Source: Microcaldota archaeon (GTDB lineage: Archaea; Micrarchaeota; Micrarchaeia; Micrarchaeales; Micrarchaeaceae). From it: a stretch of 34,281 nt of DNA. Under the pieces are notes generated by a model. The model made no database searches, was not told where the DNA came from, and saw only the letters and a program-made list of their open reading frames with translations. The DNA lies in NCBI GenBank assembly GCA_021789815.1, contig JAJYIZ010000009.1, positions 1 through 34,281 of the forward strand. The letters run 5' to 3'. Within the stretch, counting starts at the first letter, position 1. Each line of letters begins with the position of its first letter. Of the stretch, positions 1,095-1,192 are shown one piece after another. Made by a program: the position numbers and the translations under genes.

Positions 1095-1192
1095 GCAGGG
1101 ATGGCGGAGCTTGGTCAAACGCGGCGGACTCAAGATCCGTTGGCTTAGGCCTGCGGGAGTTCAAAACACGTGAACAAATCTCCCTCCCTGCA
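1095..1192 (+). tRNA. tRNA-Leu (anticodon CAA) with a 13-nt insertion in the T loop
   Basis: The acceptor stem GCAGGGA (1095-1101) pairs with TCCCTGC (1185-1191), followed by discriminator A1192; CCA is not encoded. The D stem is GCG/CGC (1104-1106, 1120-1122). The anticodon stem GCGGA/TCCGT (1124-1128, 1136-1140) encloses the loop CTCAAGA with anticodon CAA at 1131-1133, which reads UUG. The long variable arm 1141-1154 is typical of type II tRNA-Leu. The T stem GGGAG/CTCCC (1155-1159, 1180-1184) encloses 20 nt instead of 7. Removing 13 nt restores a normal TTCAAAT loop, so a short non-canonical archaeal intron is likely. GTTCA (1159-1163) can pair with TGAAC (1171-1175) in the precursor. Confidence 0.9.

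Follow-up and report, generated by a model that had tools for sequence, protein, structure and literature searches.

A putative T-loop intron with a relaxed bulge-helix-loop splice site, conserved in tRNA-Leu(CAA) genes of Micrarchaeota

Archaeal tRNA introns measure 11-129 nt, with medians mostly of 12-25 nt, and their non-canonical positions include 53/54, 56/57 and 59/60 (PMC4090602). The closest described relatives of the locus presented here are the non-canonical bulge-helix-bulge (BHB) introns at 59/60 and other T-arm sites of Thermoproteales and other archaea (PMC4090602), which are short, form an exon-intron helix with a 3' bulge and leave a standard T loop upon removal. Very short T-arm introns are also present in the nucleomorph of Guillardia theta, where some have been proven by RT-PCR; these are eukaryotic, span 3-24 nt and are removed by an unknown mechanism (PMC4090602). 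Cleavage of bulge-helix-loop (BHL) sites by epsilon2 splicing endonucleases is already known (PMC12397907, PMC6379350). The ARMAN-2 enzyme cleaves BHL pre-tRNA in vitro, its residues Y160 and K161 in the ARMAN-specific loop (ASL) are needed to cleave both BHB and BHL pre-tRNA, and its substrate pre-tRNA-Cys(GCA) combines a helix, one bulge and a loop that replaces the second bulge (PMC12397907).

Here, we analyzed a stretch of 34,281 nt (the window), which is contig C10 of a 0.68 Mb genome that is about 90% complete and which carries a tRNA-Leu(CAA) gene with an insert in its T loop. The predicted intron shares all of the above features with the archaeal T-arm introns, but occurs in Micrarchaeota, best fits a 58/59 junction and has a 3' bulge of 5 nt instead of the canonical 3; it also differs in being one intron kept at orthologous sites across two families of one order. 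It resembles the Guillardia theta introns in being very short and in the T arm. The arrangement of helix, single bulge and loop is that of ARMAN-2 pre-tRNA-Cys(GCA), and an enzyme of the ARMAN-2 epsilon2 type is likewise encoded in the genome; in contrast, the Leu(CAA) site is located in a T loop, within a class II tRNA, and its cleavage is predicted. The gene is composed of the following features:

1095-1192, + strand: pre-tRNA-Leu(CAA) gene, discriminator base A1192 included (Rfam RF00005, 44.1 bits; sequence; 107 orthologues)
1095-1101, + strand: acceptor stem, 5' strand GCAGGGA (sequence)
1131-1133, + strand: anticodon CAA (sequence)
1155-1159, + strand: T stem, 5' strand GGGAG, positions 49-53 (sequence, T-arm fold)
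1160-1164, + strand: 5' exon part of the T loop, TTCAA, positions 54-58 (register giving TTCAAAT in 97 of 97 distinct T arms)
1165-1177, + strand: predicted 13-nt intron AACACGTGAACAA, most likely junction 58/59 (absent from orthologues L081, L085, L086, L088, L377 and L378)
1172-1175, + strand: GAAC, the intron-side strand of the 4-bp splice-site helix, facing G53-T54-T55-C56 at 1159-1162 (97 of 97 distinct arms paired)
1176-1180, + strand: 5-nt 3' bulge AAATC of the precursor, with C1180 (C61) freed (fold)
1178-1179, + strand: 3' exon part of the T loop, AT, positions 59-60 (register comparison across orthologues)
1180-1184, + strand: T stem, 3' strand CTCCC (sequence)
1185-1191, + strand: acceptor stem, 3' strand TCCCTGC (sequence)

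Inspection of the gene, which reads GCAGGGA TG GCGGAGC TTGGTCAAACGC ... CTCAAGA ... GGGAG TTCAAAACACGTGAACAAAT CTCCC TCCCTGC A over 1095-1192, reveals that every stem is intact and that the T loop is the sole abnormal part. That loop, TTCAAAACACGTGAACAAAT (1160-1179), spans 20 nt versus the usual 7, so the original prediction of a normal tRNA whose T stem encloses 20 nt is borne out to the base. The Rfam tRNA model, with a cut-off of 29 bits, covers the gene over all 71 model positions with the insert present, whereas ARAGORN in default mode does not call the unspliced tRNA-Leu(CAA) in the window. The longest form of the downstream open reading frame (1170-1886) has a GTG start that falls inside the T loop; translation probably begins instead at an ATG located at or beyond about position 1200.

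Folding of the T arm addresses the form of the splice site. The minimum free energy (MFE) structure, (((((((((.......))))).....)))) at -6.4 kcal/mol, pairs GTTCA (1159-1163) with its complement TGAAC (1171-1175) and leaves a 7-nt loop and a 5-nt 3' bulge, as had been predicted from the letters of the gene. Within this helix, the T stem base G1159 (G53) pairs with C1175 of the intron in the precursor, and the 4-bp core is lengthened in the window sequence by A1163-T1171. A strict BHB has two 3-nt bulges; because a 7-nt loop lies on the 5' side and a 5-nt bulge on the 3' side, this form is excluded and the splice site is of the relaxed BHL form, in agreement with the original assignment. The MFE structure of the whole 98-nt precursor contains no cloverleaf, a lone MFE structure being weak evidence, and whole-precursor folding was left out of the evidence for an intron.

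Orthologous genes were sought in 60 relatives and then in 301 genomes of the phylum, where the insert-bearing gene is spread throughout two families of a single order. Among the 113 orthologues read, 107 contain an insert, with lengths that run from 10 nt (one case) through 11, 12, 13 (41 cases) and 14 up to 21 nt. The 10-nt case, L079 (G057:C15), is one nucleotide below the published archaeal range. The middle and length of the insert vary freely across the 107 genes, and its ends are constrained. The other six orthologues have an ordinary 7-nt loop, TTCAAAT in five and TTCGAAT in one; as for introns of the BHB class, the insert is thus absent from otherwise orthologous genes. Four of these are inside the two families (G013, G010, G032 and G037) and two in a further family (G149 and G151), and G013, G010 and G037 lack the insert although other species of their genera have it. 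Judged from genus labels only, the insert would have been lost precisely several times or, less likely, gained. Where the intron-bearing T arm has named matches that form a tRNA, these are nearly all Candidatus Micrarchaeota metagenome-assembled genomes, with a few under other archaeal labels such as Marsarchaeota. When the 107 genes were submitted to ARAGORN, none was recognized unspliced and all 107 were called tRNA-Leu(CAA) after removal of the insert, which is to say that removal yields a standard tRNA. Since the insert is absent from close orthologues, has constrained ends and a free middle and always restores the tRNA when removed, it behaves as an intron, which supports the original reading. 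Given its presence in more than 100 related genomes, in which the splice-site helix is conserved while the filling changes, comparison indicates that the intron is real and long-lived and not a one-off oddity.

The conservation of the T arm was next used to place the junction. In the window sequence alone, four registers restore TTCAAAT. Across the orthologues, removal after position 58 gives exactly TTCAAAT in every one of the 97 distinct T arms, while registers 56/57, 57/58 and 59/60 fail in 6, 5 and 22 arms, respectively. The bases facing G53-T54-T55-C56 are paired in all 97 arms, such that every arm has the roughly 4-bp helix, typical of the BHB class, that joins the 5' exon to the 3' portion of the intron; when the helix partner is slid to nine neighbouring places, 0 or 1 of 97 arms are paired. 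For random inserts of equal composition, pairing at the helix place is expected in about 2% of cases, and the insert and its helix are not due to chance because they recur in 107 orthologues. The facing bases are GAAC or, alternatively, GAGC, GAAT or GGAC, and each of the 20 deviations from GAAC substitutes a G-U pair. These one-sided changes are all transitions, of which 3 of the 4 possible kinds would keep pairing anyway, and the events are not independent; two-sided covariation cannot show because the 5' strand of the helix belongs to the exon and does not vary. An additional A57-U pair is present in only 70 of the 97 arms and is therefore optional. Archaeal splicing endonucleases cut two nucleotides past the helix ends in canonical 3-nt bulges. 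Two nucleotides past either end of the 4-bp helix lie 1164/1165 and 1177/1178, which is the 58/59 register. Register comparison and helix-end geometry are independent lines that both give 58/59, and the favoured junction, from register and known enzyme geometry, is most likely 58/59 (intron 1165-1177).

Weighing this evidence, it is highly probable that the 13 nt are an archaeal T-loop intron of tRNA-Leu(CAA), most likely lying between positions 58 and 59, for which splicing is deduced from the gene and its relatives. An unlikely alternative is that the intron is real but has its junction elsewhere, at 59/60 (or 57/58), like the intron of tRNA-Ala(GGC) in this genome. Position 59 is variable in tRNAs, such that the TTCAATT loop produced in 22 arms under 59/60 is tolerable; 59/60 is a published position (PMC4090602), and the tRNA-Ala(GGC) intron fits it by canonical 3-nt bulge geometry. 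The excised intron would be ACACGTGAACAAA for 59/60 and AACACGTGAACAA for 58/59. Only 58/59, however, gives a single loop in all 97 arms, matching that of five of the six intronless orthologues, and cuts two nucleotides past the ends of the conserved 4-bp helix yield this junction as well.

Readings in which nothing is spliced fare far worse. Retention of the insert, to give a mature tRNA with an extended T arm bearing its own hairpin, would account for a hairpin conserved in 107 genomes, but is very improbable given the normal loop of intronless orthologues, congeners included, the loss of D-loop/T-loop contacts that it would entail, the free drift of insert length and sequence and exon ends that rebuild TTCAAAT every time. 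A pseudogene would agree with rejection of the gene by a standard bacterial-mode finder, and the original prediction had named a second intact tRNA-Leu(CAA) as what would point that way; we looked for one in the same genome (0.68 Mb, about 90% complete) and found none. The gene is instead the sole tRNA-Leu(CAA) found beside the other leucine tRNAs, Leu(TAG) and Leu(GAG), it is 84-99% identical over its whole length in most relatives with stems intact, and the single-contig relatives G015, G016 and G039 likewise show one Leu(CAA) copy only, which makes a pseudogene scarcely credible.

Given a relaxed splice site, the splicing endonuclease of the same genome is of interest, as the original prediction had pointed to the unusual epsilon2 enzyme of ARMAN archaea. 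The genome has one PF01974 protein, of 388 aa (G000:C11, L219:883-2049), which aligns ungapped over residues 8-388 (381 residues) with the ARMAN-2 epsilon2 enzyme (4FZ2/9W2K) at 564.7 bits, compared with 101.8 bits for the runner-up structure. It is a single chain of about 390 aa with alphaN-alpha-betaC units, containing two stretches each of PF01974 and PF02778. In the 4FZ2 alignment, catalytic Tyr237/His252/Lys283 match Y236/H251/K282 of ARMAN-2, and ASL residues Tyr161/Lys162 match Y160/K161. By sequence comparison, this protein is therefore a full-length homologue of the ARMAN-2 epsilon2 splicing endonuclease of known structure, so the expected enzyme type is present in a genome whose relatives are Candidatus Micrarchaeota assemblies. 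Because the enzyme gene is also present in intronless species and in other families, the enzyme alone does not predict the Leu(CAA) intron. On the contig of the enzyme gene, L004 (G000:C11:7299-7373) is a tRNA with anticodon TAT, an unusual isoleucine tRNA; ARMAN-2 pre-tRNA-Ile(UAU) reportedly served as a substrate in epsilon2 enzyme work.

Together, these elements suggest a route to the mature tRNA, for which we infer transcription, cleavage, exact cut sites and ligation from the anatomy, conservation, intronless orthologues and enzyme gene described above. In the precursor, G53-T54-T55-C56 would pair with the GAAC that lies toward the intron's 3' end, leading to adoption of the relaxed BHL. 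The epsilon2-type endonuclease of the genome would then most likely cut two nucleotides past each helix end, at 1164/1165 and 1177/1178, and an archaeal tRNA ligase would join the exons into a normal TTCAAAT loop.

T-loop introns extend beyond this gene. Elsewhere in this genome, beyond the window, the tRNA-Ala(GGC) gene (G000:C17:6021-6131; L096, L221) contains a T-loop intron of about 39 nt with a TTCA/TGAA helix and a 3-nt bulge, AAT, that conceals the gene from ARAGORN and truncates its Rfam match. A T-loop pattern demanding a longer 3' bulge matched only Leu(CAA) in this genome. The strict T-loop intron pattern (GGGTTCAA...GAAANTCCC) has matches in 46 of the 60 relatives (reversed control, 0) as well as in 16 of 27 genomes that represent other Micrarchaeota families (control, 0). 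The 60 pattern-matched genes that were readable are all tRNAs after splicing and none before, according to ARAGORN, with spliced identities of Ala(GGC), Arg(TCG, TCT, CCT), Lys(TTT, CTT) and class II genes, the last poorly labelled by ARAGORN and looking like tRNA-Ser. In a genome-wide pattern scan, 52 of 117 matches gave no tRNA after insert removal and were set aside as chance, including those in bacteria, Lokiarchaeia, Woesearchaeota and Methanomethylicia. On the basis of these gene readings, T-loop introns are common in Micrarchaeota.

The Ala-type introns share a core, TAAACTTTTGGAAAAAGTTTAATCAAAA, that recurs in other T loops, those of Arg(TCG), Lys(TTT) and Ser genes. By our reading, it is also found in further tRNAs at an anticodon-loop site, for example in the Thr(GGT) gene in L325; its loci span several genera (L235, L267-L279, L285, L317, L325, L328 and L333). 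Recurrence in different tRNAs and sites suggests intron transposition, akin to that of Thermoproteales, where similar introns occupy different tRNAs and positions as relayed from a 2010 study (cited in PMC4090602, PMC4390854). The Leu(CAA) intron itself is without the core. We lean modestly toward a reading in which the Micrarchaeota T loop is an intron hot spot (58/59 and 59/60; Leu(CAA), Ala(GGC), Arg(TCG/TCT/CCT), Lys(TTT/CTT) and Ser) and in which spread of TAAACTTTTGGAAAAAGTTTAATCAAAA between tRNAs and between T- and anticodon-loop sites would represent transposition outside Thermoproteales, permitted by a broad-specificity epsilon2 enzyme. Stretches resembling the core also occur at pilin-like genes (L331, L334 and L340), immediately ahead of the SAMEYLMTYGWA segment. 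They are not claimed as mRNA introns: the reading frame of L331 runs through the stretch and would encode a basic leader peptide there, and the 42-nt insert of L340 (G010:C3, minus strand, three copies), bordered by a CAGTCCG repeat, likewise keeps the frame. Tandem copies of TTTAAACTTTTAGAAAAAGTTTAATCAAAA are present at a contig end (L284/L330, G021:C27), outside any recognized tRNA.

The Leu(CAA) T-loop intron is, on the comparative evidence, well supported as a real and known kind of archaeal tRNA intron. Neither its length nor its T-loop location is new, since lengths of 11-129 nt and such positions have been listed (PMC4090602), and the original claims that it is among the shortest tRNA introns and in a rare position were overstated: 13 nt falls inside that range, 59/60 is already on record in archaea and the T-loop position is common in this phylum. 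No description of T-loop introns or intron transposition in Micrarchaeota was found in the literature searched, which excluded the original ARMAN enzyme report (Fujishima 2011), a possible earlier listing of ARMAN-2 tRNA-Leu(CAA). As far as checked, the novelty lies in an orthologous T-loop intron retained across an order, in the resolution of its junction to 58/59 and in the abundance of T-loop introns in the phylum. More than 100 natural variants of one relaxed splice site, together with intronless sister species, form an unusually good set for probing the needs of epsilon2 enzymes. A T-loop intron should block the normal D-loop/T-loop elbow before splicing, so that, in contrast to splicing by eukaryotic TSEN, its removal should rely on a local RNA motif rather than on the fold of the tRNA. 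Because ARAGORN recognizes none of 167 T-loop-insert genes in unspliced form but all 167 after the insert is taken out, such introns may also explain tRNAs that are apparently missing from Micrarchaeota annotations.
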